This document shows, one piece after another, positions 5,629 through 47,134 of a stretch of 54,077 nt of DNA (its first letter is position 1; every line of letters begins with the position of its first letter). Source of the stretch: a virus; the IMG/VR virus record IMGVR_UViG_3300046095_000185, positions 1-54,077 of that record. One strand, 5' to 3'. A program made the position numbers and the translations under genes. The notes under the pieces are model-generated. The model was not told the origin of the DNA. It saw only the letters and a list, made by a program, of their open reading frames with translations, and ran no database searches.

Positions 5629-6270
5629 CTAGTCTTTGTATTTCCAGAAATACCCACCAGCGCGTTTTCGTGTTGGGTGGGTTCCGGCAGCAACTGCTGC
5701 AATACTTCTGTGATCTATCCCGGTTTTTGCATGAGCTATGCGAACGCCGTCAAACTCGCCGACTATGTTGCCCTCTTTATCTATTTGAATGACGGGCTTA
5801 CATAGAACTTTTTTTGCCAATTCTTTTTGCTTAAATAAATCCAGATTGAATGCGCCGTATGTCCATTGAAAGCCATGCGTGGTGTATCTATCAACTCGGG
5901 GACGAATCCCTGTTATCTCAAAAGCTCTTTTGCCATCAGTATACTCACTGATAAGCTGCCCGAACTTATTGTACTGCTTAAGAGTAACATTATTTCTGAT
6001 ATTAAATAATTTCACGCCGCATTTCATGTACGATACAATAGCTGCATTTTCTTTTATTAACGCATCCCTTCTATCTTCTGCGGTATCTATAATCTCAAAT
6101 AAAGGCTTCAATCCAATGGCTCGTAACGTGCTTACCCATTCTAATTTATCTTCACTATCATACCGCTGCCCCTTACAATGCGCAGTATATCTAACTTTTG
6201 GGTTTGATGTTTCACCCACATAAACAACCTCCTTACTAATCGGATCTTTCAATAAATAGATGTATCTCAT
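5629..6270 (-). CDS. GIY-YIG homing endonuclease (1)
   Basis: Start set at the ATG at 6270 (MRYIYLL), since the longer frame would run into the portal gene. The N-terminal nuclease domain shows YIYLL...VVYVGETSNPKVRY, the GIY-YIG signature variant with the catalytic Arg after the strand, then an Asn/Glu-containing helix. The C-terminal half carries repeated DNA-binding elements of NUMOD type (ITGIRPRVDRYTTHGFQW and HRSIAAVAAGTHPTRKRAGGYFWKY). It is a freestanding element inserted 5 bases after the portal stop and 5 bases before the connector start, so it disrupts neither. The homing role is inferred from family knowledge. Confidence 0.88.
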   Translation of the reverse strand: MRYIYLLKDPISKEVVYVGETSNPKVRYTAHCKGQRYDSEDKLEWVSTLRAIGLKPLFEIIDTAEDRRDALIKENAAIVSYMKCGVKLFNIRNNVTLKQYNKFGQLISEYTDGKRAFEITGIRPRVDRYTTHGFQWTYGAFNLDLFKQKELAKKVLCKPVIQIDKEGNIVGEFDGVRIAHAKTGIDHRSIAAVAAGTHPTRKRAGGYFWKYKD

Positions 6271-6275
6271 TTTAT

Positions 6276-8369
6276 TTATTTTTTCTTTACCACAATCGAA
6301 CTGCGCCATAAATGCCTGCACTCCGGACTGCTTCCCCACCAGCCGCCTTTGCGATCGAACACGCTGTAGCCCAACCGCAATGAAATCTTTTCGATTTCTG
6401 CCCGAGAATAAAACCGGTTGAGGCCGATCATCTTTATACAGAATGGTCGAGATGTTGGGATAAGTGGTGGGCCAATGTTCGGCTTAACCTCGTAGCTATA
6501 TTTAACCGATACCTGAACGGGTGGGTTTTTAATTATGTCAGGCGGCACGATCTCGATGCTCTCAGGAACGGCCCGCGAAATGATCGAATCCGTACCGATT
6601 GTTTCGGTTGATGTTTCCAAATACCCGCGTTTAACCAGGCTACTCAGTTTTGATTTGACGTAGCTTTCCGTTTGCTTGATCGCATCAGCTATAACTTTTG
6701 GCGTGACCTTCGGATCTTTCTTTATCATCTGCAGGATCGCATCTTCGGTCTTTGTAACATCCTTCGTTTTGAATGCCTCCTCGATGAATATCGTTTCATC
6801 TTCCTCCGCTTCCAGGTCGGAACCGAAACAAACTTTTTTTGATTTCAGTATTTCGAAGTCATCGCGGCTGTCACCGCACTCGTCGAACATGGCAATGATC
6901 GCATCTTCCTGCTCGGCGAATGATAGGGCTACTGCTTTGATCCCAAGAATGTCATTTATCTCGGTATCGGTAAATCCAAGGCTGGTACGCAGCAAAGCCT
7001 TTGCTGCCAATTCCGTAAGTATGCCTTTTGAATATTCTCGAATAATTCGCTTTAATTGCTGGTGCTGTTTAGTCGAAAGGTTTTTAGCATGGTCATTAAC
7101 CGGTATTGCAGGTTCGTCGCTATCAAGGGTTGGCGCTGCCGTTGATGGCGCCGGTATTGCTGGTGTACCTGCAATATTCGGGGTAGCCCATTTGTCTTTG
7201 GGGATGCCCAGTTTCTCAAAGATGAACTCAATTGGTATGGAGCTTATCACATCCTTTACGTCGAACTGCAGACCAATCGGATCAGTTTGTTTCAATTCAT
7301 AAGTACCTGGCCACATCGAATAAGAAAGTAAAAAGTTTACCTCTTTGTCAAAAGCATTGGCCTTCGGCTTCGCATAAGTATTAATGAAAATATCGTAGGC
7401 GGTTTTCAGTTCTGTATTCCCGCCTAACTGCCCCTCTGTTTTTATACCGAACAACATCGGGCTGGTTACCAGGTGACCGCTGAATATTTCCTGCTGACAG
7501 GTTTTATTCAGTTCGATCATGTGCTTATCCAGCTCACTGGCTGACAGGTCATCGATCTGAACAGACTTCGAGGCATTCACATCATTGAACACCAGAATGA
7601 ATTTCCCTGCGTTTTCAGACCCGGCAAACTTCTTACCGAACCGGTGCTCGATTTCTCTTTTCTTATCTTCCGTTGGTTCGCCCTTGAAAAACTGAATCAT
7701 TTTAGAAGGCATCATGCCGTTACGGATAGCTGATAGATAGTACTTACTGATCTCGATATCCGTTTCAATATAGTTGTTGCTGCCAATGTAAGAAGGCAGC
7801 GGATAAAACCGGGTCATCGGGCGGTACTCGTTATATGCGAATATTTGCGACCCGACCGGATATGATGGATTAAAAGCGGGTATGAATATTTCTTCATCAC
7901 GGTTATTGATATCCCAACATTCTTTATACCAGTAGCCGCTTTCCTTGCCTACCCTGATGGTGGTATAATCAATGTGGTATATTTCGCTCACTCGCATGGC
8001 TGCATTCCAAATGATTTCCAGCCGGAAGCCGCCGTATATTTCTACATCGAGAATTGCTTTTTTTGCAATGTCGTTCAGGGTTTCGTTCAGCCGGTTGACT
8101 ATTGCCTTTCCGTTTTCGTATCCTTCGCCGAAAATATAAAAAGCCTTGCCGGTTAAGATGGCGTTATGCTTCGCTGACTTATTGAATAGATGGGTAAGGT
8201 ATTCAGGGTACCGGTTGTCATCACCGTACTTAATGTAGTCCTTGTTCCTGCTCTCTTTAAAAATCGGAATCCGAGAGTCCGCAAACTTTAATACAATGAT
8301 ATCCGGCGAGCTATCAACCTCGGCTGAACTTTTCGGAACTGTCTTTATATCGATTACAGGATTATCCAT
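6276..8369 (-). CDS. Portal protein with C-terminal winged-helix-like and minor-head-like extensions
   Basis: About 697 residues from the ATG at 8367-8369 (MDNPVIDIK). Residues 1-430 fit a phage portal: conserved YIKYGDDNRYPEYL near the N-terminus, NGMMPSKMIQFF, and a Gln/Gly-rich stretch ending with SPMLFGIKTEGQLGGN. After a Pro/Ala linker, residues about 565-640 look like a winged-helix HTH (DAILQMIKKDPKVTPKVIADAIK...VKRGYL). The last about 70 residues carry RPFC...NRFYSR...LGYSVFDRKGGWW...RHLW, a pattern seen in minor head proteins. The fusion of portal with a minor-head-type tail is the notable point. The portal call is firm for the family; the sub-domain readings are inference. Confidence 0.8.
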   Translation of the reverse strand: MDNPVIDIKTVPKSSAEVDSSPDIIVLKFADSRIPIFKESRNKDYIKYGDDNRYPEYLTHLFNKSAKHNAILTGKAFYIFGEGYENGKAIVNRLNETLNDIAKKAILDVEIYGGFRLEIIWNAAMRVSEIYHIDYTTIRVGKESGYWYKECWDINNRDEEIFIPAFNPSYPVGSQIFAYNEYRPMTRFYPLPSYIGSNNYIETDIEISKYYLSAIRNGMMPSKMIQFFKGEPTEDKKREIEHRFGKKFAGSENAGKFILVFNDVNASKSVQIDDLSASELDKHMIELNKTCQQEIFSGHLVTSPMLFGIKTEGQLGGNTELKTAYDIFINTYAKPKANAFDKEVNFLLSYSMWPGTYELKQTDPIGLQFDVKDVISSIPIEFIFEKLGIPKDKWATPNIAGTPAIPAPSTAAPTLDSDEPAIPVNDHAKNLSTKQHQQLKRIIREYSKGILTELAAKALLRTSLGFTDTEINDILGIKAVALSFAEQEDAIIAMFDECGDSRDDFEILKSKKVCFGSDLEAEEDETIFIEEAFKTKDVTKTEDAILQMIKKDPKVTPKVIADAIKQTESYVKSKLSSLVKRGYLETSTETIGTDSIISRAVPESIEIVPPDIIKNPPVQVSVKYSYEVKPNIGPPLIPTSRPFCIKMIGLNRFYSRAEIEKISLRLGYSVFDRKGGWWGSSPECRHLWRSSIVVKKK

Positions 8370-9335: not shown

Positions 9336-9986
9336 TTAATTTTTTAAATACCGTAAATTCTTTTTTCCGTTTTTCCTGTCAGGGCGGATAATTTCCTTAA
9401 ACTGACTGATACTTAACCCTAAATCTTTCATGCACTCATTTCGATTATTCCACAGCCGCCCCGTTAATATGCATTGGACTTTATAGCAAGATTTCTGTCT
9501 CTCGATTTTTGCTTTATTGAGTGCGCTAATTGATTTCGCTTTTTGCTCCGTGCTTTGTTTAACCCCTCGCTTTGCATCACTCATTTTCTTTTTTTCTTCC
9601 TCGGTCCTTGCTATTCCGTAATTCCAAGTTTTTTTACCATAGTTTGGGTTCCCGTTCCCTAGCTTAGCCTTACTTACCTTGCTTATAGTTTCTTGCGTTG
9701 GCTTATGGCCTGACATCCCTTGTCCTCCATATGTCATATTAACCAATACGCCACCGTTAATTTGTAGATCGTGCTTTTTAATATATTCAATTTCGATTTC
9801 GAAAGCTTGATCTTCCGTAAGGCCATCTGCTAATTTTATTCCGGCAAACCCATATTTATTAGCTACATTCTGCCAGTGCTTATTCCTTCCGTTTAAGGAG
9901 TTGATGCGATTACATTTCCCCTTGCCTATATAAAAGAACTTCTTTGTAATTGGGTTGATATGCGCGTACACATAATATTCACCCAT
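9336..9986 (-). CDS. GIY-YIG homing endonuclease (2) with NUMOD3-type repeats
   Basis: 216 residues. The nuclease domain at residues 1-90 has YYVYAHINPITKKFFYIGKGK with an Arg shortly after, and a conserved Glu in AFEIEIEYI. The middle part has NUMOD3-like DNA-binding segments (GNGNPNYGKKTWNYG, KKMSDAKRG), and the C-terminus has a helix-turn-helix-like segment. It is inserted between the capsid gene terminator hairpin and the tail tube candidate, 4 bases upstream of the latter's start, so both neighbours stay intact. Confidence 0.9.
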   Translation of the reverse strand: MGEYYVYAHINPITKKFFYIGKGKCNRINSLNGRNKHWQNVANKYGFAGIKLADGLTEDQAFEIEIEYIKKHDLQINGGVLVNMTYGGQGMSGHKPTQETISKVSKAKLGNGNPNYGKKTWNYGIARTEEEKKKMSDAKRGVKQSTEQKAKSISALNKAKIERQKSCYKVQCILTGRLWNNRNECMKDLGLSISQFKEIIRPDRKNGKKNLRYLKN

Positions 9987-20508: not shown

Positions 20509-20997
20509 TTAATAATGCGCAAATTCCCCATGTAGTTTACTGGCTGCCGCTTTGTATGCCTCGTGGGCAAGTTCGGCGGTTTCATATGAGCCTAAATTTT
20601 TAGTTTTGCCATTCATTCTTATTGATGGCATCCACTTCCCTGTCTTTTTTCTATACGATACACCCTTATAGCCGCTTGTGTTATTTTTCTTTATCGGAAC
20701 ATTGTAATGATTCTGTGGCCTCGTTGCAAGTCGAAGGTTGTCAATATTGTTATTGTCTTTAATATTATCCCGGTGATCAATAAAGAACCCCTCTGGAATA
20801 TCTCCATTGTGCAACATCCATATTACCCTATGCTCTAAATAGTACTTCATGTCGATTCTCACATTCCGATATCCACCATGATGCAATGACCCAGCACGAG
20901 AACCGGCTTTTGTTTGATTTTTAACTTTGGGATTCTTCCAAAATATCATACCGTCCCGGTATTCAAATATTTCATTCAAATATTCTTTAGTGACCAT
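20509..20997 (-). CDS. HNH homing endonuclease with AP2 DNA-binding domain (1)
   Basis: 162 residues. The HNH core lies at about 50-95: YLEHRVIWML, FIDHRDNIKDNN, NLRLAT, with the catalytic His in DH and Asn in NLRLAT. An AP2-like domain follows at about 108-155 (GYKGVSYRKKTGKW, LGSYETAELAHEAYKAA). It is close to the second HNH-AP2 gene at 27316-27798 along its whole length. It sits 27 bases after the large terminase gene. Freestanding elements of this type home into genes next door. Confidence 0.92.
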   Translation of the reverse strand: MVTKEYLNEIFEYRDGMIFWKNPKVKNQTKAGSRAGSLHHGGYRNVRIDMKYYLEHRVIWMLHNGDIPEGFFIDHRDNIKDNNNIDNLRLATRPQNHYNVPIKKNNTSGYKGVSYRKKTGKWMPSIRMNGKTKNLGSYETAELAHEAYKAAASKLHGEFAHY

Positions 20998-21024: not shown

Positions 21025-22230
21025 TTACCAAACCGAAATGTTACCAGACGTTGCGGCATTTCTATGTATTCGTACAGCCAGCGCTAATGAACATACGCAA
21101 TCATCATGAAGCCCGTAAGGGGCTGTGTATTTTACACCATGTGCAGAATATTCGTACTCAAAAGAATCGAGCTCATCTTTCATTACACCTTCAAGAACGG
21201 TCACCTCTCTATTCTGAATAGCATATGCAAGACCTTCTATTAATTGTTGTTTGCTTCGTTGCGTAAAAACAAACATTTCGGTTTCTCGAACCCGCGCAAT
21301 GCTTTCCGCTATAGGATCACCCGCTCCGGTTGAATCAATGCAAAGGGGGCCAGGCGGCAAAGAGAGAATTGTTTTAGTTATAGATTCCCAGTCCCTTTGA
21401 AATCTATCAAAATAGGATACGCGCCCAAATTTATCGAGGCCGGTTATTACGGTCCAGTCACCGGTTACCGGGTTCTTTCCTTTTGCTAAATCAATTCCGA
21501 AGCAAACAGATGGCTCCGCGCTCATGCCGTACACCGCACGGCTTATATGCGTTATTCCTATTGGATTTGATCCGTCCTCACTAGCCTCCGCTAAGTAGAG
21601 CTCTTTAAATACCGCCTCCGGCAAATCCCTTTTTGCTTCTTCAATTTCTTCCAGCTTAAGTATCCCCGCCTTAACAGCATCGTAAGCTGTGATCTTCTTA
21701 TAAAAATAGTTTGATTCACCGGCCTTTGCCCGCATCGCCATCTTGTAAAAGAAATTCTTGCGGCCCCTGACGTTACCGATCAGTTTGCACTTTCCGTTAG
21801 TGGCAGTCAGCGTAGACCGAATGGCAATCCATGACGCCTCTCGCATACGACTAGCCTCATCAAGCACTGCCGCATAGCAATCATTTCCGTATAGACTATC
21901 AGGGGTATCGCCGCTTTTAAATTCAATTATAGATCCATGTGCGAGCGTAAGCGTGAGCCGGGTTTCGTTTACCTTGAAAAACTCCCTATCGCTTATCTGC
22001 GCCCGCATTCTATCAAATGCAATTTTGGATTGCATATATATTGGAGCTACCCAAAAAACAGATTTATTTGGCCCGCACTTTAACGCTTGCTCTAAAAGCC
22101 AAACGATCATGCAGGCCGTTTTGCCCGCCTTCGTACTTGCTTCTATGCACGCAAAGCGTTGCTCACAGTCCATGATCTCGACTTGGTAGTCGGTCATTTT
22201 AGGGCGGGTATAGTTTATTTTAACCGCCAT
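21025..22230 (-). CDS. terL: Terminase large subunit
   Basis: About 401 residues; the ATG at 22230 is preferred (a GTG at 22233 is one codon earlier). ATPase part: Walker A-like EASTKAGKTA near 30-40, Walker B YAAVLDEASRM near 120, coupling motif SGDTPDSLYG. The C-terminal RNase H-like nuclease has acidic residues in CFGIDLAKGK, LCIDSTGAGDP and LHDDCVCSLALA. It cuts and packages DNA into the prohead. Its ATG overlaps the stop of the upstream acyltransferase (TGATG), so it is translationally tied to the sugar cassette. Confidence 0.92.
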   Translation of the reverse strand: MAVKINYTRPKMTDYQVEIMDCEQRFACIEASTKAGKTACMIVWLLEQALKCGPNKSVFWVAPIYMQSKIAFDRMRAQISDREFFKVNETRLTLTLAHGSIIEFKSGDTPDSLYGNDCYAAVLDEASRMREASWIAIRSTLTATNGKCKLIGNVRGRKNFFYKMAMRAKAGESNYFYKKITAYDAVKAGILKLEEIEEAKRDLPEAVFKELYLAEASEDGSNPIGITHISRAVYGMSAEPSVCFGIDLAKGKNPVTGDWTVITGLDKFGRVSYFDRFQRDWESITKTILSLPPGPLCIDSTGAGDPIAESIARVRETEMFVFTQRSKQQLIEGLAYAIQNREVTVLEGVMKDELDSFEYEYSAHGVKYTAPYGLHDDCVCSLALAVRIHRNAATSGNISVW

Positions 22231-22799
22231 CACCCAATCTTTTTAACCGGGTTCCCAACATACACCCCCGGCTCTGTTATATCTTTAACCACTACTCCGC
22301 CTGCGCCAATGGTCACATCCGAGCAGATGGTTATCTTATCCCGTATAACCGCATTGCTGCCGATGTAGCACATATCACCGATGATCACATTGCCCGAGAT
22401 GTTAGCGCCGGGAGAGATCGTTACAAAGTCACCTATAATGCAATCGTGCCCGATGGTACAGTTGAGGTTGATCAGGCAGTGAACACCGAGCCTGACATTA
22501 ACGGTCAGTATTGAGCCGGGGCAGATGATGGCGCCTGCGCCGATGCTGTTATTGTGACTATAGCACATGCCTACATCGAACTGGCAAAAGTAAATGTGTT
22601 TGAATTGTTCGGCAACCTTTTGCCTTATCGATACATCGCCTATAGCAATAACAGCCCCGATTCCCGGAATAATTCCTTTGCACTCGTTTTCATACATCCT
22701 GTAAGGTACGCGGGCGTTATCAGCGTATGCGGCCACTTCGCGAGCGAACCCGCCTTTGCCAATGATCTGTAGTTTTATAGCTTGAAACTCTATTGCCAT
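22230..22799 (-). CDS. NeuD/PglD-type sugar O- or N-acyltransferase
   Basis: 189 residues from ATG 22799 (MAIEFQAIKLQIIGKGGF). The N-terminal Rossmann-like part has IIGKGGFAREVA, typical of NeuD/PglD proteins. The C-terminal two thirds form a left-handed beta-helix with hexapeptide repeats (IGAGAIICPGSIL, IGHDCIIGDF, IGSNAVIRD, IGAGGVVVKD) and a likely catalytic His in GHDCIIGD. The family acylates amino sugars or sialic acid on a nucleotide or glycan. It overlaps the aminotransferase gene by 10 bases, suggesting the pair acts in sequence: amination then acylation. Confidence 0.85.
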   Translation of the reverse strand: MAIEFQAIKLQIIGKGGFAREVAAYADNARVPYRMYENECKGIIPGIGAVIAIGDVSIRQKVAEQFKHIYFCQFDVGMCYSHNNSIGAGAIICPGSILTVNVRLGVHCLINLNCTIGHDCIIGDFVTISPGANISGNVIIGDMCYIGSNAVIRDKITICSDVTIGAGGVVVKDITEPGVYVGNPVKKIG

Positions 22800-23497
22800 A
22801 GTTTGAATTTTGAAAGATCCGGGTACGGCAAACACAGGTCATCGTTATGCCTCGGCGTTCCATCCTGGTTGTAGAACTGTATCATCATTTGCAATCCACG
22901 GGCGGCTATCTCCGGCATTAAATACATGTTCCAGCCGACCACGGGATTGTCGTCAAAGTTATCATCATGGTACGAGCATTCCGAACGTCCGCTGAACCGG
23001 GCTTTCTTAAACCACTTGTACGCCTGTTCGTCGTCCGTAAGGATCGCGCCCCCTTTGCCCAGTTTCAAATGTTTGTAAGGGCCAGTGAATGAAATGCACA
23101 TGTGCGTAGCTGGCTGATACATGTTGCAAGTAAACCGCAAGGCCGAATCCAAAACTTTTGTAGGGCTTAATTGATAGGAGCCTGTTATTGTTCCTTTAGG
23201 ATTATCTATGCCCTGAAGTGCATTATAGAAATCATTATCCATAAACCCAACTATGCCGCCTGCATGTATTATTTCACATGCAACGGAAGGGTATGTATGT
23301 TTAGGAATTATAATCTCTGGCTTACAGACTAACCCCTCTGTGGTATCGTGCTTATGATAATCCTGTACCTGCAATTCATAATACAACGCCAGGAACAACG
23401 CATTGCTGCAGTTGTCAACACAGACGCAATAAGCGCTACCGGTATATTCGCATAGTGCTTTTTCGAACTCAGCGGTTATCGTGTGTGGGTTCATCAT
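22790..23497 (-). CDS. DegT/DnrJ/EryC1-type sugar aminotransferase, short form
   Basis: 235 residues against about 370 for typical members. It keeps the N-terminal region (FEKALCEYTGSAYCVCVDNCSNALFLAL, PKHTYPSVACEIIHAGG) and a segment CISFTGPYKHLKLGKGGAILTDDE. In the latter, a Lys near the end of the loop corresponds to the PLP-binding Lys of the family's SF-x-K-x-L-GGA motif. The C-terminal half of the fold is strongly shortened. It likely transfers an amino group to a nucleotide-linked keto-sugar, but the small size leaves the activity uncertain. Confidence 0.75.
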   Translation of the reverse strand: MMNPHTITAEFEKALCEYTGSAYCVCVDNCSNALFLALYYELQVQDYHKHDTTEGLVCKPEIIIPKHTYPSVACEIIHAGGIVGFMDNDFYNALQGIDNPKGTITGSYQLSPTKVLDSALRFTCNMYQPATHMCISFTGPYKHLKLGKGGAILTDDEQAYKWFKKARFSGRSECSYHDDNFDDNPVVGWNMYLMPEIAARGLQMMIQFYNQDGTPRHNDDLCLPYPDLSKFKLWQ

Positions 23498-23527
23498 TGG
23501 GCTTTACAGGATAATGTTGTGCTATTC

Positions 23528-24184
23528 TCATTTGAGTTCTTTTAAAATGTCTTGCGACGTAAGGCCATTGAAGTGAAGGATGGCCGGTATCCTATTCGTG
23601 ATCTTGTTCTTTAACACAGAGCCGGGAATATCTTTATCCATACAAACGACTACGCAAAACTCACTCGGATCAGCAAACGCCATCGTCTGGAATATCTCAC
23701 ACTTGGTATCCAGCTTAATCGGAAAGCCATCTTTCTCCGCTGCCAGGTAAGCTATCATCTGCTCATGCTGACCATTCGCATCGTTCGGCAACTTATCCAA
23801 TCCGTACCGCTCAAAGAACTCGATGATCAGTTTTAGCGGGCCGCCATAGCCGCCACCGTTTAAATACTTCCACTTTGATTTGGTCGGCTTGTACTGTTTA
23901 GCTAACTCTGTTTGAGGATAACAGGCTTTTTCTGTGCTGTACAGGATGTGATCAGTCGGTACATCGAACCGGCGTTGACAGAATGTATCGGCCCCATCCG
24001 TGTAAGCAAATAGTTCATGGCCGGTCACTGCTCGTTTATAACAGGCCAGCATATCACGCAGTACCTGGCCGTTGCCAGTGAAAGGGGCGCTATTGATGGC
24101 AAGCTCGTACCCATGGCGCTCGAATGAATCTACAGTTTGTTTGGTCCGTTCGTTGGGGGAATAGATGTTGGTGATGATGATCAT
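23528..24184 (-). CDS. PLOD/GT25-like glycosyltransferase
   Basis: 218 residues. The motifs FAYTDGADTF (metal-binding DxD-type), YSTEKACYP, LNGGGYGGPL and a C-terminal HFNGLT resemble the glycosyltransferase domain of the procollagen galactosyltransferase/PLOD family and related phage or viral enzymes. It probably adds a hexose to a protein or glycan. The start overlaps the upstream homing endonuclease stop by ATGA, and 30 bases separate it from the aminotransferase gene. Confidence 0.75.
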   Translation of the reverse strand: MIIITNIYSPNERTKQTVDSFERHGYELAINSAPFTGNGQVLRDMLACYKRAVTGHELFAYTDGADTFCQRRFDVPTDHILYSTEKACYPQTELAKQYKPTKSKWKYLNGGGYGGPLKLIIEFFERYGLDKLPNDANGQHEQMIAYLAAEKDGFPIKLDTKCEIFQTMAFADPSEFCVVVCMDKDIPGSVLKNKITNRIPAILHFNGLTSQDILKELK

Positions 24185-25038
24185 TGAAAATTTTTTATAT
24201 CCGAGTGCTTATACTGCCAAATAAAACCAAATGCTGATCCTCTCTTTCCACGGCATACGGCACTTACCAGCGTACCGTCTCTGGTTTTTTTGCCCATAGA
24301 ATGCATTGCATTTTTAATCGAATCCCATTCGCGAATAAATTCACCGTTTTTGGTAAATTGAATAATTGGCGCAAAGTTTCTATTCCTTATTGTTTCGAAC
24401 GGTTCTCCTTTAAATCTCCAGGCAAAACCTCCAGCCGTTTTGCACTCTGGCCTCCTGACACATATGCTTGAAATGTTACTAATCTCCAAACCAGTTCTTC
24501 TAGCTGCTTCAGAAATAGATGGATATTCAGCAATCACCTGTCCAGTTAATGAATATTGAACAACGGCTTTTTGCTTAGCCTTTAATAGCTTATCCATTAA
24601 TTCCTTTGGCCTCTTTCTCCCATACATAGGATTGTCTTTCCCGTGTAATCCTTTGCCGTAGTTTGGATTCTTGTCTCCTGATATACGGCCAACTGCCTTT
24701 GCTTTCATTATCTTGCGGGCTTCGTCCGTATGCTTATAACCCTTGCTCCCTTCACCCCCTTCGGTAAGATTCAATAATTCAACGCCGCAATCATGGTATT
24801 GCCTAATATAAAGCCTTTCATAATCGTTCATTACAGACTGTAATACATCGGCAGGCAATGTATGAATCATTTCGAAACTGTGGTTACCTACGCCATGCTT
24901 CTTTAATGAATTATACAACTTGCCACCAATCGATACCCTGTCCATACGCTTATAAGTCCCGAATCTTGCGCGACTGTCGAACGTCTGCCCGATATAGACC
25001 TTACCGGTTGGACTTGTTATTTTGTATATGCCTATCAT
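24181..25038 (-). CDS. GIY-YIG homing endonuclease (3)
   Basis: 285 residues from the ATG at 25038 (MIGIYKIT). Nuclease domain: GIYKITSPTGKVYIGQTFDSRARFGTY, with the catalytic Arg and a downstream Glu in YERLYIRQY. NUMOD3-like repeats (SGDKNPNYGKGLHGKDNPMYGRKRP) and two NUMOD1-like repeats (AVVQYSLTGQVIAEYPSISEAARRTGL and PIIQFTKNGEFIREWDSI...) follow. It fits exactly between two glycosyltransferase genes with ATGA overlaps on both sides, so insertion kept translational coupling intact. Confidence 0.92.
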   Translation of the reverse strand: MIGIYKITSPTGKVYIGQTFDSRARFGTYKRMDRVSIGGKLYNSLKKHGVGNHSFEMIHTLPADVLQSVMNDYERLYIRQYHDCGVELLNLTEGGEGSKGYKHTDEARKIMKAKAVGRISGDKNPNYGKGLHGKDNPMYGRKRPKELMDKLLKAKQKAVVQYSLTGQVIAEYPSISEAARRTGLEISNISSICVRRPECKTAGGFAWRFKGEPFETIRNRNFAPIIQFTKNGEFIREWDSIKNAMHSMGKKTRDGTLVSAVCRGKRGSAFGFIWQYKHSDIKNFQ

Positions 25039-25844
25039 TCGAATGGGTGCCAATGAGGTTGTTTAAAATCGTACATATCTCTAACGTATTGGATCACCTG
25101 TTGAGTATGTTCTCCGCTATGCTTTTCTTTCCAGCTTTGATACGGCGTGTCACCTGGATCGATATGATCAATGTTTATATGCGGAAGGAAGCATGAGTAA
25201 AATCCGGCTATATGGCATTTATGCGAATAGATAACATCGTCATAGCCGTATTTCCCAAATTGGAATAGACCGCCGCATTTGTCCAGCAACGCCGCACTAT
25301 GCATCACACAGCTTCCTATCGTATGCTTTACCTTCTCGACCACCTGCCATGGTTCACCGGGGGTATGCGGTAGCATATGCAGTTCACTTTTCCAGTCGGC
25401 TTCCGGATGGCCCGGCCACTCCCAACAGTCCTTACGCTTCAGTCCTACCTGACCGATGTTCGGATCTCGCCTTATCGCTTCTTCCATTTCATCTACCCAG
25501 CCGGCAGAGTTGATGATAATATCGTTGTCCATCTTAATGCAGTGCTCCCCGGGCCGTCGCAGCTTCCAGGCCTGGTTAATCGCCCTCGCCGTCCCGACAT
25601 TCTCGGGCATATCAATGATGCTGATGTTCGGATGCATGCCAGTTGCGTATTCGGTATCGATGATATAATTGAGTAACCATTTATAAACTTCTCGTGTGGC
25701 CTTGCAACTATTATTATCAACTACGATCAGCCTATGTTTAACCAGGTCAACGGTATCGATAATACATTCCAGAGTTTGCCGGGTCAGTTCGGTTCGTAAA
25801 TTTTCGTCGGTATCGAATACTGCGACGGCAATCATTGCGCACAT
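25035..25844 (-). CDS. Family 2-like glycosyltransferase
   Basis: 269 residues, GT-A fold. N-terminal nucleotide-binding strand (MIAVAVFDTDENLR), RLIVVDNNSC, MPENVGTARAINQAW, then the DxD-type metal site in CIKMDNDIIIN, and a later acceptor-side region with KYGYDDVIYSHKC. It transfers a sugar from a nucleotide donor. It lies between the GT4-like gene and the homing endonuclease, forming part of the sugar cassette. Donor and acceptor cannot be read from sequence. Confidence 0.82.
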   Translation of the reverse strand: MCAMIAVAVFDTDENLRTELTRQTLECIIDTVDLVKHRLIVVDNNSCKATREVYKWLLNYIIDTEYATGMHPNISIIDMPENVGTARAINQAWKLRRPGEHCIKMDNDIIINSAGWVDEMEEAIRRDPNIGQVGLKRKDCWEWPGHPEADWKSELHMLPHTPGEPWQVVEKVKHTIGSCVMHSAALLDKCGGLFQFGKYGYDDVIYSHKCHIAGFYSCFLPHINIDHIDPGDTPYQSWKEKHSGEHTQQVIQYVRDMYDFKQPHWHPFE

Positions 25845-25845
25845 A

Positions 25846-26121
25846 TTATTCGCTGTTTTTATTTGATGGAAAATTAGCTTGTACTGTCACCGACTGCTGC
25901 GCTAACCATTCATCATAATGGCGATAGAGCTTTACAAGCATCTCGACAAGGCACGGGGGGCACCAGAGATCAGCGGAATATCCCGGTTGAAACTCTTCCC
26001 TCATGACCCGCTGCATCCCTTCACGCTCATTCGCATTCAACCCCCTTACGTAAAAAGCCTTTACGTAAGTGTCGTAATGATGTCTATTATCATCGAGGAA
26101 CTTTTTGTTTTCTGGCTTCAT
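25846..26121 (-). CDS. Small conserved protein with a CPPC motif
   Basis: 91 residues, helical, with WCPPCLVEMLVKLYRHY in the centre and a charged N-terminus (MKPENKKFLDDNRHHYD). The Cys pair might bind metal or form a disulfide. Its start overlaps the upstream gene by ATGA, and one base separates it from the glycosyltransferase downstream. It matches small conserved proteins near phage glycosyltransferases that I know only as unnamed; no function is claimed. Confidence 0.65.
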   Translation of the reverse strand: MKPENKKFLDDNRHHYDTYVKAFYVRGLNANEREGMQRVMREEFQPGYSADLWCPPCLVEMLVKLYRHYDEWLAQQSVTVQANFPSNKNSE

Positions 26122-26336
26122 CTGAATAACCTATTTATTCTATAGACCAATGTCTGCCAGGATGATCTATATGTAACCTTCCAATTCGCCACCAACTCAA
26201 CCTCGTTAGCTGGTAACCCCATCCCTATTGAATAGCCGTTCATAAAATCCCTCCACGCAAAGCCGGTTGACCCGTTATGGTTAAGCTGCCAAATGTTTGT
26301 TGGTTTAAACCAAATCCTTTTTACTTTCATACTCAA
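26118..26336 (-). CDS. Small hypothetical protein in the sugar cassette
   Basis: 72 residues, rich in Trp and basic residues (VKRIWFKPTNIWQLNHNGSTGFAW). It overlaps the end of the GT4-like gene by 32 bases (to the ATG at 26336; Met3 at 26330 is an alternative) and the next gene by ATGA. No motif is recognised. The tight overlaps at both ends support a real, co-translated gene. Confidence 0.55.
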   Translation of the reverse strand: MSMKVKRIWFKPTNIWQLNHNGSTGFAWRDFMNGYSIGMGLPANEVELVANWKVTYRSSWQTLVYRINRLFR

Positions 26337-27312
26337 ATATTTGCTTCCTCATGTTATTAATCTTGTTGAAATTGTAGTGCTCGGCACAGTACTCCGCCAA
26401 CTGCTGCCCCGCTTCTTTCTGTCGCTTCCTGCTTTCCGCCAGACGCTTAATGTATTTTACCCAGTCGCCGGCATGCTTTGCATACAACACAGGCATATCG
26501 AGGTAAGGATGAACCTCAGAACAGATCACCGGCACCCCCAGGTTGGCCGCTTCCAGTATTTTGAGTGGCGATTTACATCTATTGAACTTGGAATTGATCA
26601 ACGGCACAAGGCAGATGTCGGCATGCGCATATGCCGCGTAATACTCCGTAACCTTCGTAGCGCCAATCAGCTTATATTGATGTTTCAGGTTCGCCGTGTA
26701 GTCATGGGCCATCTCGTGCCACTCTGCATTATCTTCAGCGTATCCCGCCATAATCATTTTGATCTTACCGGCTATCGGCCCCAGTTTATCGAGCGGTGTT
26801 TTCAATAGGGCAATATCAGCCTTGTGTGTATCGCTTCCTTGCCAGAACAACCGGGTGAGATAATAAGGCTCTCGCTCAATATCGAACTGTCCAGCCTTTG
26901 GTATCGCGTTGGGGCATACGTGAACGTTCGGGTTATGTACGGCTACTTCTTCGGCAAGGCGGGAATGGGTGACCAGGATAACGTCGGCATCTTTGATCTG
27001 CTGTATTTGTTTACCCGCAAACCCGATAGCCTGGTAGTGCTGATATAATACGTGATGCTCGTCGAGCTGCCAAAAATCGTCGAGATCAACACATATCTTG
27101 AAGTCGTATTTATTCCGTAACTCCTTAATAATGGGCAAGGCATGATCAGGCAGGATGCGGTTGTACATGAACAGATCGCAACCCTTTTCGAAATCCTCGA
27201 CCGTCAGGTTGTTGGTGACATAAACATCAATGTCCTTCATTAACATGAGTGGCATGATGATGCGGTGATATGATGGCCCGCTGTTGCCGTTGACATAAGC
27301 GATTATGCGCAT
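26305..27312 (-). CDS. Family 4-like glycosyltransferase
   Basis: 335 residues, GT-B fold. Start MRIIAYVNGNSGPSYHRI, typical of small GT4-like enzymes. The second half contains NVHVCPNAIPKAG, RLFWQGSDTHKADI and a donor-site motif KSPLKILEAANLGVPVICSE with the conserved E-x7-like spacing of GT4 enzymes. It is the first gene of the sugar cassette, 4 bases after a homing endonuclease. The substrate is unknown. Confidence 0.83.
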   Translation of the reverse strand: MRIIAYVNGNSGPSYHRIIMPLMLMKDIDVYVTNNLTVEDFEKGCDLFMYNRILPDHALPIIKELRNKYDFKICVDLDDFWQLDEHHVLYQHYQAIGFAGKQIQQIKDADVILVTHSRLAEEVAVHNPNVHVCPNAIPKAGQFDIEREPYYLTRLFWQGSDTHKADIALLKTPLDKLGPIAGKIKMIMAGYAEDNAEWHEMAHDYTANLKHQYKLIGATKVTEYYAAYAHADICLVPLINSKFNRCKSPLKILEAANLGVPVICSEVHPYLDMPVLYAKHAGDWVKYIKRLAESRKRQKEAGQQLAEYCAEHYNFNKINNMRKQIFEYESKKDLV

Positions 27313-27315
27313 AGG

Positions 27316-27798
27316 CTAATAGTTTGCGAACTCTCCATGAAGTTCGATTGCAGCTTTTTTATATGCTTGGTGTGCCTGTTCGGGCGAATTGTAATATCCC
27401 AAATAAATTCGCTTCCCATTATGCCTGATTGATGCGAACCATTTCTTATCCCTCTTATGAAATGCTGCGCCTTTTAATCCTGTCTTACTATGTTTTGTTG
27501 CGCTTACATTGTATTGGTTCTCGCTTGGGGTTGCTAGTCGCAGGTTTTCTATTTTATTATTATCCTTTACTTCGTCAATGTGATCAATTTCATAACCTTT
27601 GGGAATGTCGCCATAATGAAACATCCATATTACACGATGCTCCATATGATATTTTTTGTAAAGCGTAAGCACTCTGTACCCGGACTCCCTCAATGTACCC
27701 ACCCTATCCCCAATGCGGATGCAGGGCGCAGTCTTTTTCTTCCAAAACAGCTTACCATCATAGTATTCAAAAACATCATTTAGCATTTCTTTTGTCAT
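27316..27798 (-). CDS. HNH homing endonuclease with AP2 DNA-binding domain (2)
   Basis: 160 residues. HNH core MEHRVIWMFHYGDIPKGYEIDHIDEVKDN...NLRLAT; AP2-like region GLKGAAFHKRDKKW...YYNSPEQAHQAYKKAA. The whole protein parallels 20509-20997, down to the last residues LHGEFA-Y, so the two copies are recent relatives. It sits between a small membrane protein and the first glycosyltransferase without breaking either. Confidence 0.92.
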   Translation of the reverse strand: MTKEMLNDVFEYYDGKLFWKKKTAPCIRIGDRVGTLRESGYRVLTLYKKYHMEHRVIWMFHYGDIPKGYEIDHIDEVKDNNKIENLRLATPSENQYNVSATKHSKTGLKGAAFHKRDKKWFASIRHNGKRIYLGYYNSPEQAHQAYKKAAIELHGEFANY

Positions 27799-27807
27799 AT
27801 ACTATTT

Positions 27808-28131
27808 TTAAAGCCAGCGCATACGCACTTCAGAATAGAGAGCCGCGAATGTCATTCCAATTGGCATATATGCGATGCCCCAAAAACCAATAGACCAGCA
27901 GCCAAGTATCAATGAAAACCAACCGCAAAGGCAGGTTACGCAATTGAAGGGTTTAACCACACCCCACTTTAACACGTACACCCAAACGAATGCGCATGAG
28001 AATGCAAGAATTATTATCTCGATGCTGTTTAGGTGGATAGCCGGTAGATTAACGTATTTGAATAACATCACGATGCCGACTATAACAGCCAGCATGATGA
28101 TCCATTGTACAATTGCACCTAATATCTTCAT
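27808..28131 (-). CDS. Membrane protein with four hydrophobic segments
   Basis: 107 residues with hydrophobic stretches at about 3-24, 36-55, 66-82 and 83-98, and a CVTCLC motif between the second and third. Its start overlaps the stop of the sigma-like gene by ATGA. The role is unknown; it may be an inner-membrane partner of the sugar cassette or an accessory host-interaction protein. Confidence 0.65.
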   Translation of the reverse strand: MKILGAIVQWIIMLAVIVGIVMLFKYVNLPAIHLNSIEIIILAFSCAFVWVYVLKWGVVKPFNCVTCLCGWFSLILGCWSIGFWGIAYMPIGMTFAALYSEVRMRWL

Positions 28132-28640
28132 CGTAAAACCTTTTCTTTTATTATCTCAATTGATTTCTTAACGGTCTTGTATGCGCTGCTGTAGGGTATC
28201 ATCGTATCCTTTTCGATCGCCCGGTAGTTGCCATGCTTCATGTATAATCGAATGATACCCTTGTTGTACCAGTACAGGTTATCCACTTCCTTCAACGCCT
28301 TGTCCTCTATTTCTTCCCTGGTCAATCGCTCCTCGAAGTCTTGATCTTCGCCCGCCGTGAACCTGTCCACCAATTCGGCTACCTGCTGCCGGTATCGCTT
28401 ATAAAATAAACTGGTCTTTGACTGGATTAGGTTAAGTATTATCCGCACCGTGTAGAACTTCAAGCCGTTAGGGCCTGACTCATGTATGCTCACCAGCTTC
28501 CTTTCATCCGTCTCCAATAGTATCAATACTACCTCTGCCCGCAGGTCATCACGCAGATGCTCAGGCTCCATCTTAGCAATGCAATCGTTGAACTCCTTGC
28601 TATTATATAACTCGGTAACGATTTCATTTCTGGTCGCCAC
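28128..28640 (-). CDS. Sigma-70-like protein (third sigma-type factor)
   Basis: 170 residues. The N-terminal half has a region-2-like pattern (LRDDLRAEVVLILLE, then FYTVRIILNLIQSKTSLFYKRYR), and the C-terminal 45 residues form a region-4-like HTH (NYRAIEKDTMIPYSSAYKTVKKSIEIIKEK). It follows the small terminase candidate by one base, suggesting late-phase expression. It may direct RNA polymerase to structural promoters. The resemblance is weaker than for the two ECF factors, so a different DNA-binding role is possible. Confidence 0.6.
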   Translation of the reverse strand: MATRNEIVTELYNSKEFNDCIAKMEPEHLRDDLRAEVVLILLETDERKLVSIHESGPNGLKFYTVRIILNLIQSKTSLFYKRYRQQVAELVDRFTAGEDQDFEERLTREEIEDKALKEVDNLYWYNKGIIRLYMKHGNYRAIEKDTMIPYSSAYKTVKKSIEIIKEKVLR

Positions 28641-28641
28641 A

Positions 28642-28974
28642 CTATTTATTCAGGTTTAATGTGATATCGAATTTGGTTTCGATAGGTCCGCCGTCGGGGC
28701 CTGAAAGTTCGTGCCGTTCTTTTACCTTGCCATAGGCGCGCTCTAAAAGAACTTCGGCAGCTCTAACATCGCCTTTAGTTGCCTTAGCTCTTAGGGCCAT
28801 TAGAATAACTTGGGCTGCGGTTTTGCCATCCTTTTCCTCACCCAATACTTCAGCGAGCAATTCATCTATAGCAGGAATTTTTTTTGGCCTCCCTTTCGGG
28901 TTTCCTGATTGGCCTGGCTTAAATCGCGTGTGTTTTGGCGGCTTGTTTTTTCCTGTTTCTTCCCTGCTTTTCAT
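28642..28974 (-). CDS. Small terminase subunit candidate (DUF5681-type)
   Basis: 110 residues. The N-terminal FKPGQSGNPKGRPKK motif is the hallmark of DUF5681 proteins, often found just upstream of phage terminase genes and basic enough to bind DNA. The C-terminal part ends in an acidic, beta-type tail. It is about 6.4 kb upstream of the large subunit, which is unusual and explained by the sugar cassette between them. The terminase role is inferred. Confidence 0.6.
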   Translation of the reverse strand: MKSREETGKNKPPKHTRFKPGQSGNPKGRPKKIPAIDELLAEVLGEEKDGKTAAQVILMALRAKATKGDVRAAEVLLERAYGKVKERHELSGPDGGPIETKFDITLNLNK

Positions 28975-30940: not shown

Positions 30941-30966
30941 AAAAAACCGCAACCGATTGATTGCGG
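30941..30966 (-). terminator. Terminator upstream of the ParB-methyltransferase gene
   Basis: Leftward strand CCGCAA / TTGCGG with an 8-base loop, then TTTTTT, ending 1 base before the ATG at 30939. It separates the LuxR-type regulator unit from the methyltransferase/radical SAM/terminase unit. Confidence 0.85.
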
Positions 30967-35277: not shown

Positions 35278-35741
35278 TAGTATCCGTATACAAGCATGGC
35301 GGCATCCCGGGCATGTTCAGAAGTGGAGCCGTTATACTTTGTTAATTTTTTAAAGTAATCAGCAGCCACCTTTGTCTTGTTGTTTTTCGGCGCCACCATT
35401 TCAAATGGAACATTTAACCACTGCAGATAATCTTCCCAAATAATAGCATCTCGTTTTACACTGCCAGCCCCCTCTCGCTTACCGCGTTCTGCTTTTTCAT
35501 CCTTTTGCCAGGGTATCCAGGTCCGCTTTCGCGCATCTTCGACCCGAACAAACACATCACCGGGATTGGATTGATGCCAAAACTTTACGCCTTCCATAGC
35601 CTCGTGTATCCTAACAGTAGCAATGTGGCGTATGCATTTATCTTCCCGGTTCCATACGCACATGCCGGTGTTTACCCCGCAATCGATGCCTATGAGGTAG
35701 TTGTAGTTAGTGAGCGGTATGGGGCGGGTGGTGGTTTTCAT
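35277..35741 (-). CDS. RuvC-like Holliday junction resolvase
   Basis: 154 residues of RNase H fold: first acidic residue in YLIGIDCGVNTGMCVW (Asp20), second in FVRVEDARK, last in SEHARDAAMLVYGY near the C-terminus. Such phage enzymes cut branched DNA before packaging and after recombination. It lies in the replication and recombination block, overlapping the upstream gene by ATGA. Confidence 0.8.
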   Translation of the reverse strand: MKTTTRPIPLTNYNYLIGIDCGVNTGMCVWNREDKCIRHIATVRIHEAMEGVKFWHQSNPGDVFVRVEDARKRTWIPWQKDEKAERGKREGAGSVKRDAIIWEDYLQWLNVPFEMVAPKNNKTKVAADYFKKLTKYNGSTSEHARDAAMLVYGY

Positions 35742-36343
35742 AATGTTTCAAGATTTACTGATGCCGGCCTACACTGAATCGCAACTGCTATCAACCATTT
35801 TGCTAATTCAATCGGCGTCTGCTCACGTTCTGCTCTTGTGATTTCTTTCTTAACACCTGGTCGCCGTCCAAACTTGTTTTTTTTATTTACGTTTACGCAA
35901 TGCGTAACCGCATCAAACCGCATTGGAATTGGTGGCAAATCGCCTTGACAGCAACCGCAGATGTACAAAAGCGTTCGTTTCTGCGCCTTGTGCCAGAACC
36001 AGAATTGATCTATGCAAATACTAAAGCCGCCGTATTCATCGTATAGCCCAGGCATTGGTAAGTTTAATTCAGGCCATAACCGGCTTGCTGCCGGGTGTTC
36101 CAATACGCCGCCCCACTGCCTGATCCATTCAATTGATTTTATAGCCAATTCTTTTTCCCCTGGTCTTGGATTGGCAGACCATGAGAACTTACCCCATGCC
36201 CTACAAGGAGGGTGTGCAATGATAGGATTACCCCCAGGCCATTGTATTGCATCACGTTCAATGTCCCAGCAATCAATCCCAAGCGTTTTATAAACGCTAT
36301 CGCTGCGAACGAACAAGACTGATATAGTTGGATCTATTTTCAA
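35738..36343 (-). CDS. C5-cytosine-methyltransferase-like protein, reduced
   Basis: 201 residues. NPIIAHPPCRAWGKFSW recalls motif IV (PPC) of C5-methyltransferases and GGVLEHPAASRLW the motif VI region (EN/EHP). There is no clear SAM-binding motif I at the N-terminus, so it may be a substrate-recognition relative or an inactive form. It has a Cys-rich centre (YICGCCQGDLPP) and ends with a helix rich in Arg/Glu. It overlaps neighbours by 4 bases at each end. Confidence 0.5.
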   Translation of the reverse strand: MKIDPTISVLFVRSDSVYKTLGIDCWDIERDAIQWPGGNPIIAHPPCRAWGKFSWSANPRPGEKELAIKSIEWIRQWGGVLEHPAASRLWPELNLPMPGLYDEYGGFSICIDQFWFWHKAQKRTLLYICGCCQGDLPPIPMRFDAVTHCVNVNKKNKFGRRPGVKKEITRAEREQTPIELAKWLIAVAIQCRPASVNLETL

Positions 36344-46092: not shown

Positions 46093-46836
46093 TTAATTAG
46101 TTGCAGATTCCAGTTCAGCACATTTCTTAATGTCCTCCAACGCTATTTCATTGCTTTCGAAAAATCTCACAGGGCTTACTGCTACAGAACTTGATACCTT
46201 ATATATTTGCATGGCAGCGAATAGCGTTGAAGTTTGCCGTTCCAGCTTGGCGCCCGCATCCCCTGCTAACTGAACTACCCAACCGGCACGACAATGTGTT
46301 GTTTCGCAGGTATGCCATGTGGACATATCGAGGGCATCAGGGCGAGATGTAACGGCATCTAATATCCTATTATGAATGTTTTCAATCTTAGGATAATTAC
46401 CCATTACATTCTCATACAATGCGGCGGTTTCGTTCTTTTCTTCTTTGCGACCCGATTTGTATTCCAAGCCAGAGCAGCGAGAGCAGTCAGAGCAGCCAGA
46501 GCAGCCAGAGCAGCCAGAGCAGTCAGAGCAGTCAGAGCAGCGAGAGCAGTCAGAGCAGCGAGAGCAGCGAGAGCAGTCAGAGCAGCCAGAGCAGACAGAG
46601 CAGCGAGAGCAGCGAGAGCAGCGAGAGCAGACAGAGCAGCCAGAGCAGCCAGAGCAGTCATAGCAGCCAGAGCAGCGAGAGCAGTCAGAGCAGTCAGAGC
46701 AATTCCAGCAACCTTTATTACTCTCATTATCTTCTATATAATTAGGATATTCATGTGCGAAAGACTGCGACACTCCATTAATATCTTTATCTTCTCTGCT
46801 TAAAAATTTCGAATAGGTGGAAAATATCTTTGTCAT
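46093..46836 (-). CDS. Cys-Ser-x repeat protein
   Basis: 247 residues from the ATG at 46836 (a start at 46896, 20 codons earlier, would overlap the upstream gene by 29 bases). The core is 27 Cys residues at an exact spacing of three, nearly all as C-S-x with x = Asp, Arg, Gly or Val, coded by nearly identical 9-base units. The C-terminal about 95 residues form a separate domain with MSTWHTCETTHCRAGWVVQLAG and Phe/Glu-rich helices. Proteins of this kind recur in unrelated phages, but I know no proven function. A regular metal-binding or beta-solenoid-like rod is a reasonable idea. The N-terminal segment (about 1-40) is charged and helical. Confidence 0.78.
   Translation of the reverse strand: MTKIFSTYSKFLSREDKDINGVSQSFAHEYPNYIEDNESNKGCWNCSDCSDCSRCSGCYDCSGCSGCSVCSRCSRCSRCSVCSGCSDCSRCSRCSDCSRCSDCSDCSGCSGCSGCSDCSRCSGLEYKSGRKEEKNETAALYENVMGNYPKIENIHNRILDAVTSRPDALDMSTWHTCETTHCRAGWVVQLAGDAGAKLERQTSTLFAAMQIYKVSSSVAVSPVRFFESNEIALEDIKKCAELESATN
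46474..46710. repeat. 9-bp tandem repeat array coding for Cys-Ser-x
   Basis: 237 bases (79 codons) in which the unit TGC-TCT-NNC (on the leftward strand) repeats about 26 times, with variation limited almost entirely to the first two positions of the third codon. The array keeps all six frames almost free of stops, which creates several false open frames here. Copy number is expected to change by slippage. Confidence 0.9.
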
Positions 46837-46867
46837 ATTATACAGTTTCAAGATTTGCAGCAGTTTG

Positions 46868-47134
46868 TCAAATTCCCGCTTGATTTCCAGATCCATTGTC
46901 GATCGTTTTATAATGTTCAGCTATCTTGGCAGCAAACTCACGGCATATGGCAATTCCTTTCTCGTCTTTAGGATCTATGAATATATCAGCGCCACACCAA
47001 TCAGGATCACTATCGAAGTACGCACTTACACCATACCGTTCGATGGGCTTCGTTGCCGCCGCCTCAGCGCTCTTTATTATTTCTTGCATGGTGTCTTTGT
47101 ACATTCGAATTTCTTTACTTGTTTGCGATACCAT
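46868..47134 (-). CDS. Hypothetical protein
   Basis: 88 residues, helical N-terminus then VSAYFDSDPDWCGADIFIDPKDEKGIAICREFAAKIAEHYK, which looks like a small alpha/beta fold. It follows the small frame 47077-47196 and precedes the Cys-repeat gene. The function is unknown. Confidence 0.6.
   Translation of the reverse strand: MVSQTSKEIRMYKDTMQEIIKSAEAAATKPIERYGVSAYFDSDPDWCGADIFIDPKDEKGIAICREFAAKIAEHYKTIDNGSGNQAGI

Follow-up and report, generated by a model that had tools for sequence, protein, structure and literature searches.

A glycosyltransferase gene tied to the large terminase gene and a variable set of sugar genes beside it in a group of Bacteroidota phages

Introduction

In the mycobacteriophage Corndog, an O-methyltransferase gene and glycosyltransferase (GT) genes lie between the portal and protease genes, and the capsid was proposed as the target of their products (PMC4351075). 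Capsid and tail-tube subunits of mycobacteriophages are reported to bear glycans, in work (Freeman et al. 2023) cited in PMC12619734. In this study, we analyzed a 54,077-base virus record (IMGVR_UViG_3300046095_000185, the whole of which we call the window), in which a block of sugar genes on the minus strand lies between the gene of a DUF5681 protein, a candidate small terminase subunit, and terL, the gene of the terminase large subunit. The sugar genes encode a GT4 glycosyltransferase, a GT2-like glycosyltransferase, a PLOD-type GT, a short DegT-like aminotransferase, and a NeuD-type acyltransferase. The block shares with the cassettes of Corndog/Cluster O and Che8-type phages the placement of several GT genes within a virion-structure operon and the company of variable decorating genes, including an O-methyltransferase in relatives of the window phage. 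It differs from the Corndog and Che8 cassettes in its hosts, which are probably Bacteroidota, in the slot, which is between the small terminase candidate and terL rather than between portal and protease, and in an added branch for amination and acylation that is undescribed for those phages. Searches by tblastn with the GT4, PLOD GT, and GT2 sequences returned no Mycobacterium phage among the matches listed, a few of the matched groups being unnamed. By analogy, and without detected homology, the cassette may work like those of the mycobacteriophages.

Parts of the block resemble other described systems. The GT4 has homologues of about 32% identity in the phrog_7162 clusters of Phapecoctavirus and phi92, where further GT genes adjoin it; these clusters differ in lying by replication genes and in belonging to large lytic myoviruses of enterobacteria. 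The DegT-type and NeuD/PglD-type enzymes are coupled as in the PglE-PglD, VioA-VioB, and perosamine synthase/N-acetyltransferase pairs, but the phage DegT has no C-terminal domain and no dehydratase partner was seen in the phage. Flavobacterium phage immuto (NC_055915) has adjacent short DegT (57% identical) and NeuD (37%) genes within a run of GT genes, but this is a 160-kb phage with a much larger cluster, which also contains a full-length DegT and an epimerase and is not located at terL. The PLOD GT belongs to the same GT domain family as mimivirus R699 and PLOD/LH3 and has the DxxD motif in common with them, whereas it lacks two of their Trp residues and the hydroxylase domain, and the window encodes no collagen-like protein.

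Results

The GT4 gene is tied to terL in related phages

A search with a TerL profile yielded at least 418 related viral loci. We kept 80 of them, each with at least 1 kb of sequence upstream of terL, and looked for GT4 within 7 kb. A GT4 gene of the phrog_7162 type was present upstream of terL in 74 of the 80 loci, Mucilaginibacter prophages among them, and in 54 its stop codon overlaps the terL start by 10 bases. Because many of these loci are near-identical, we also counted TerL clusters at 90% identity, of which 16 out of 21 have the GT4. The distance matrices of GT4 and TerL are correlated (r = 0.70 for 17 representatives, with 0 of 999 permutations as high), which fits shared inheritance over a long time. 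Hence, the coupling to packaging genes, which a sequence-only reading of the window had noted in one genome, extends to most of the clusters. That reading also called for a survey of the whole gene set beside terL; GT4 proved recurrent, while GT2, PLOD GT, DegT, and NeuD vary.

Among 401 genomes of the host family, a single one encodes the GT4 family, and this copy is in a prophage, suggesting that the GT4 is essentially phage-specific. The TerL profile also found prophages in Mucilaginibacter pedocola and in metagenome-assembled genomes of Mucilaginibacter and Flammeovirgaceae, and a more distant one in Fibrisoma. The hosts of the phage group are therefore Bacteroidota, and the same presumably holds for the window virus. 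An independent relative of the GT4 is encoded together with a UDP-glucose dehydrogenase just before the terminase in Streptomyces phage Zuko.

The model of the GT4 has a GT-B fold (pLDDT 93), and Foldseek matched it to GlgM, PglA, and BshA; the GT4 profile matched nothing among PDB sequences, so that these relatives came from the fold search. Lys247, Ser248, and Glu254 are invariant. The predicted fold is silent on the acceptor.

Accessory sugar genes are exchanged in the slot

The close relatives in IMG/VR (loci L003-L008) share with the window the order of genes ahead of terL: GT4, u91 (a small CxxC protein), GT2, and often PLOD GT and DegT. At the other end is the minimal slot of the M. pedocola prophage (L098), with GT4 as the only sugar gene, together with u91. 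GT2 homologues occupy the same place in L003-L007, L021, and L029, and in L004, L021, and L029 the GT2 is accompanied by a methyltransferase and by a PLOD GT to which a Methyltransf_24/CmcI-like domain is fused. The slot contains a TylF-type O-methyltransferase in L008/L099 and a GT2-like gene with an FkbM methyltransferase in L024. PLOD GT and short DegT are found both in the window and in L006 and L007, where they are 79% and 52% identical to the window genes, and the window also has NeuD. The same arrangement recurs in related phages, and the cassette is therefore not a chance arrangement.

The main freshwater clade has, in 45 loci, a gene for a protein of 247-258 amino acids (aa) directly before GT4 (for example L031:8285-9046). 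It appears GT9-like by eye, but as it has no Pfam or PHROG match we do not claim it as a GT9.

PLOD-type GT and GT2

The PLOD GT belongs to the collagen glucosyltransferase superfamily, and its nearest solved relatives are mimivirus R699 and human LH3. The metal-binding DxxD motif is kept, with D63 and D66 invariant. The positions of the UDP-binding and gating Trp residues of R699 and LH3, which are described as functional in both proteins (PMC9546862), are occupied by Phe and Tyr, and we therefore do not claim a collagen-type activity. A collagen-like fibre was rejected as the substrate because the window encodes no Gly-X-Y protein. The GT2 gave no match in a sequence search of the PDB.

Synechococcus phage S-CAM9 (L017, 2215-11071) shows a different arrangement: after the gene of a collagen-like tail fibre (G-x-K repeats) come two 2OG-Fe(II) oxygenase genes and a gene that joins a PLOD-GT to a 2OG-Fe-like domain. 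This suggests that the cyanophage hydroxylates and glycosylates a collagen-like fibre.

The short DegT pairs with a NeuD-type acyltransferase

The DegT comprises 235 aa in the window and 204-226 aa in relatives, compared with about 370-400 aa in solved homologues. It has no C-terminal domain, and profile and fold matches cover the N-terminal pyridoxal phosphate (PLP) domain of sugar aminotransferases. The model (pLDDT 88) matched GDP-perosamine synthase best in the PDB (TMq 0.56), its matches covering only a portion of the PDB chains (TMt about 0.37), and the catalytic Lys142 and Asp117 are invariant in 33 short DegT sequences. At least 545 viral loci in IMG/VR encode the short DegT, compared with 1 of 396 Bacteroidota genomes (E 1e-25), which points to a large, virus-enriched family.

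The NeuD-type protein falls just below the TIGR03570 cut-off and reaches 23.7 for PglD_N (cut-off 23.4); its best relatives in the PDB are VioB, the nearest (E 9e-30), PglD (E 2e-18), and perosamine N-acetyltransferase (1e-14). A NeuD-like or other hexapeptide transferase is encoded within 5 kb of the short DegT in 67 of 73 contexts, and adjacent to it in 36. The single bacterial short DegT gene has NeuD and GT2 beside it. Because the pairing recurs, even in this bacterial case, amination followed by acylation is a reasonable function for the two proteins. The prediction that the block makes an N-acylated amino sugar is supported in this respect, while the pathway is incomplete in the window, as taken up below.

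The bacterial gene is part of a small chromosomal cluster of Bacteroidota genome G314 (L189, 4215-7293) with BKACE-like, NeuD, GT2, and short DegT genes. Some phages likewise have BKACE-like and MaoC-like genes (named by eye) close to their short DegTs, a hint that the acyl group is an unusual one.

Organization of the block and neighbouring genes

All five enzymes predicted between the DUF5681 gene and terL were located there, on the minus strand, by profile matches (Table 1). The earlier gene list was correct in its entries and had left out two homing endonucleases, a membrane protein, and a 170-aa protein. The short overlaps said to join the genes were borne out: they measure 1, 4, 4, 4, and 10 bases, among them NeuD-terL (1), DegT-NeuD (10), endonuclease-PLOD GT (4), and u72-u91 (4), and the gaps are 1-30 bases. 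The starts of terL (22230) and the NeuD-type gene (22799) were refined from the sequence. All reading frames of the block are intact, with the overlaps preserved, and the GT genes lie between the small terminase candidate and terL, that is, in a virion-assembly operon as do cassettes of the Corndog/Che8 kind.

Table 1. Features of the sugar block and its surroundings in the window
Feature	Position	Strand	Evidence or remark
DUF5681 protein, candidate small terminase subunit	28642..28974	minus	PF18932, 68.4 bits (cut-off 27.5); function inferred from position
170-aa protein (g170)	28128..28640	minus	sigma/helix-turn-helix (HTH)-like by eye only; many relatives have a homologue ahead of the slot
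107-aa membrane protein, KPFNCxxC motif	27808..28131	minus	open reading frame (ORF) and hydrophobicity by eye
HNH-AP2 homing endonuclease	27316..27798	minus	PF13392, E 1e-19; PF00847, E 3e-8
GT4 glycosyltransferase	26305..27312	minus	phrog_7162, E 2e-64
u72, small protein	26118..26336	minus	ATG start near 26330; 71% identical homologue in L004
u91, small CxxC protein	25846..26121	minus	homologues in the slot of 16 loci
GT2-like glycosyltransferase	25035..25844	minus	PF00535, E 1.3e-7
GIY-YIG/NUMOD homing endonuclease, between GT2 and PLOD GT	24181..25038	minus	NUMOD1, NUMOD3, weak GIY-YIG; ORF to 25053, best ATG 25038
PLOD-type glycosyltransferase domain	23528..24184	minus	PF25342, E 2.5e-16, 60.1 bits (cut-off 27)
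Short DegT-like aminotransferase, PLP domain only	22790..23497	minus	PF01041, 58.3 bits (cut-off 19.8)
NeuD/PglD/VioB-type hexapeptide sugar N-acyltransferase	22230..22799	minus	TIGR03570, 154.8 bits (cut-off 160.8)
terL, terminase large subunit	21025..22230	minus	phrog_2, E 4e-26; PF03237; tblastn to annotated TerL genes
Terminator-like hairpin	30947..30966	minus	8-bp stem and T run; just upstream of the ParB-methyltransferase gene

The hairpin ending at 30966, a consensus match only, is a possible upstream boundary of the transcription unit. No minus-strand terminator of comparable strength was found within the block, and promoter and terminator scans of the window, hairpins included, gave totals not above those of shuffled sequence.

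Neighbouring genes were assigned as follows. DUF5681 or HTH proteins of a similar kind precede terL in relatives. The 170-aa protein has no Pfam or PHROG match. The 107-aa membrane protein has no Pfam match and is a conserved upstream neighbour, with homologues of 33-48% identity in L003-L008, L098, and others. The HNH-AP2 endonuclease is a mobile insertion outside the sugar system, and the presence of the GIY-YIG/NUMOD endonuclease varies among relatives. We set u91 aside as a sugar gene because it is present in L028, which has no GT4; it is probably a packaging-region gene. No family match was found for u72 in Pfam and PHROG searches, and it has too few homologues to be judged as a sugar gene.

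Across the window, five GIY-YIG/HNH endonuclease-like genes are scattered among virion and packaging genes (5629-6339, 9336-9986, 20509-20997, 24181-25038, and 27316-27798), the last two confirmed by Pfam and the other three recognized by eye. The gene of a radical SAM protein (PF04055, 28996-29802) separates the ParB-methyltransferase gene from that of the small terminase candidate. The phrog_12600 protein encoded at 35738-36343 (E 1e-56) has an AHPPCRAWG motif that by eye resembles the catalytic loop of cytosine methyltransferases, and the protein at 46093-46896 has a long Cys/Ser triplet-like repeat (CSGCSDCSRC...) and no Pfam match.

Discussion

We propose that the block is expressed late and serves to glycosylate a virion protein, a proposal to which we give an even chance of being right. 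It relies on the position in the packaging module, the phage-specific and terL-linked GT4, and the mycobacteriophage precedents. In the following scheme we infer what the enzymes do, on which substrates and in which order, that the genes are expressed late, and that the target is in the virion. The soluble GT4 would be the core enzyme: with a sugar nucleotide of the host as donor, it would place a sugar on an acceptor that is synthesized or assembled in the late phase of infection. Extension or branching of this sugar would fall to GT2 and the PLOD-type GT. A keto-sugar nucleotide provided by the host would be aminated by the short DegT and then N-acylated by the NeuD-type enzyme, so that one of the transferases would have an N-acylated amino sugar to use. 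The O-methyltransferases in the slot of relatives are of sugar type (TylF, FkbM, Methyltransf_24/CmcI-like); their occupying the same slot would make the outer decoration exchangeable while GT4 persists. Diversifying pressure on a surface glycan would be expected to leave such a combination of a conserved core and swappable decorations. A fuller version, which we offer tentatively as it may well not hold in all its parts, is that glycosylation in this Bacteroidota phage group is part of the packaging module, with GT4 marking a conserved virion protein and swappable side genes building lineage-specific outer sugars, among them, in the window phage, an N-acylated amino sugar whose synthesis would use a minimal, PLP-domain-only aminotransferase of a largely viral family.

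Several observations weigh against modification of a virion protein by the complete cassette. Synteny with packaging genes indicates timing and linkage, not the acceptor, and by eye the major capsid protein has no obvious Ser/Thr-rich C-terminal tail. GT4 is dispensable, since five of the 21 TerL clusters show none: L018, L028, L079, and L100 appear without it, and L027 is a truncated contig cut off close to terL. The GT4 relatives of Phapecoctavirus and Arthrobacter phage Racecar are near replication or other non-virion genes. The short DegT departs from the full two-domain architecture of about 370 aa, and no nucleotide-sugar dehydratase that would form the keto-sugar was seen in the window.

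It is unlikely, though well worth weighing, that the transferases instead alter the lipopolysaccharide, O-antigen, or capsule of the host, so that progeny avoid re-adsorbing to debris or other phages are excluded; in that case the late position would be conserved for the sake of release and not of assembly. Polysaccharide loci typically contain genes of the GT2, GT4, DegT, and NeuD kinds, the small bacterial chromosomal cluster has a short DegT together with NeuD and GT2, and integrase genes in two relatives, together with the prophages, show that some members are temperate. However, the GT4 is tied to terL and not to lysogeny genes and is essentially phage-specific, and the cassette enzymes are by eye predicted to be soluble. 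Serotype conversion of the Gtr type was rejected, as the GtrA-type flippase (PF04138) is absent from 18 related records, several of which are fragments, but this flippase test would miss a soluble enzyme whose substrates are undecaprenyl-linked intermediates.

Glycosylation of DNA, in which the transferases would decorate a modified base against restriction as in T-even phages or possibly YerA41, is improbable. DNA-glycosylating phage transferases are well known, YerA41 provides a precedent with a thymidine substitution of roughly 1 kDa that is apparently an oligosaccharide (PMC9023294), and in the window a ParB-DNA methyltransferase gene heads the same gene run. However, the thymidylate-synthase/hydroxymethylase family (PF00303) was absent from the window and 17 relatives, several of them fragments, in a search that covers only this route of base activation and was positive in 9 control genomes; DNA was set aside as the target for this reason. 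Vequintavirinae and relatives, including phi92-like phages, are described as exceptionally restriction-sensitive despite the putative glycosylation machinery of the phi92-like phages (PMC8594841), and phi92-like phages carry GT4 relatives, as does Phapecoctavirus. The sequence-only reading had favoured a virion or DNA target over the host cell wall; the virion fits the position and the Corndog precedent, and the DNA part is unsupported. Lastly, it is improbable that PLOD GT, DegT, and NeuD are recently acquired cargo of DNA rich in homing endonucleases and do little or nothing for this phage, leaving only GT4 and perhaps GT2 to matter. In favour of this reading, two homing endonucleases lie inside the block, the accessory set is highly variable, DegT lacks a domain, and PLOD GT has lost two Trp residues described as functional in R699 and LH3, but the intact frames and overlaps, the recurrence of the same PLOD GT and DegT genes in L006 and L007, the invariant catalytic residues of the short DegTs, and the recurrent acyltransferase pairing in unrelated phages argue for function.

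Most surprising are the long-term tie between GT4 and terL and the short viral DegT family. The latter, being large and virus-enriched, is a tractable target for enzymology, and the M. pedocola prophage with its GT4-only slot offers a simple test system. Should the virion be the target, a large clade of Bacteroidota phages would have glycosylation as a lasting trait, which would then be no peculiarity of mycobacteriophages, with GT4 kept like a packaging gene while the outer sugars change between lineages. If true, this would be relevant to the ways in which phages escape recognition and to the abundance of unexplained glycosyltransferases in phage genomes.

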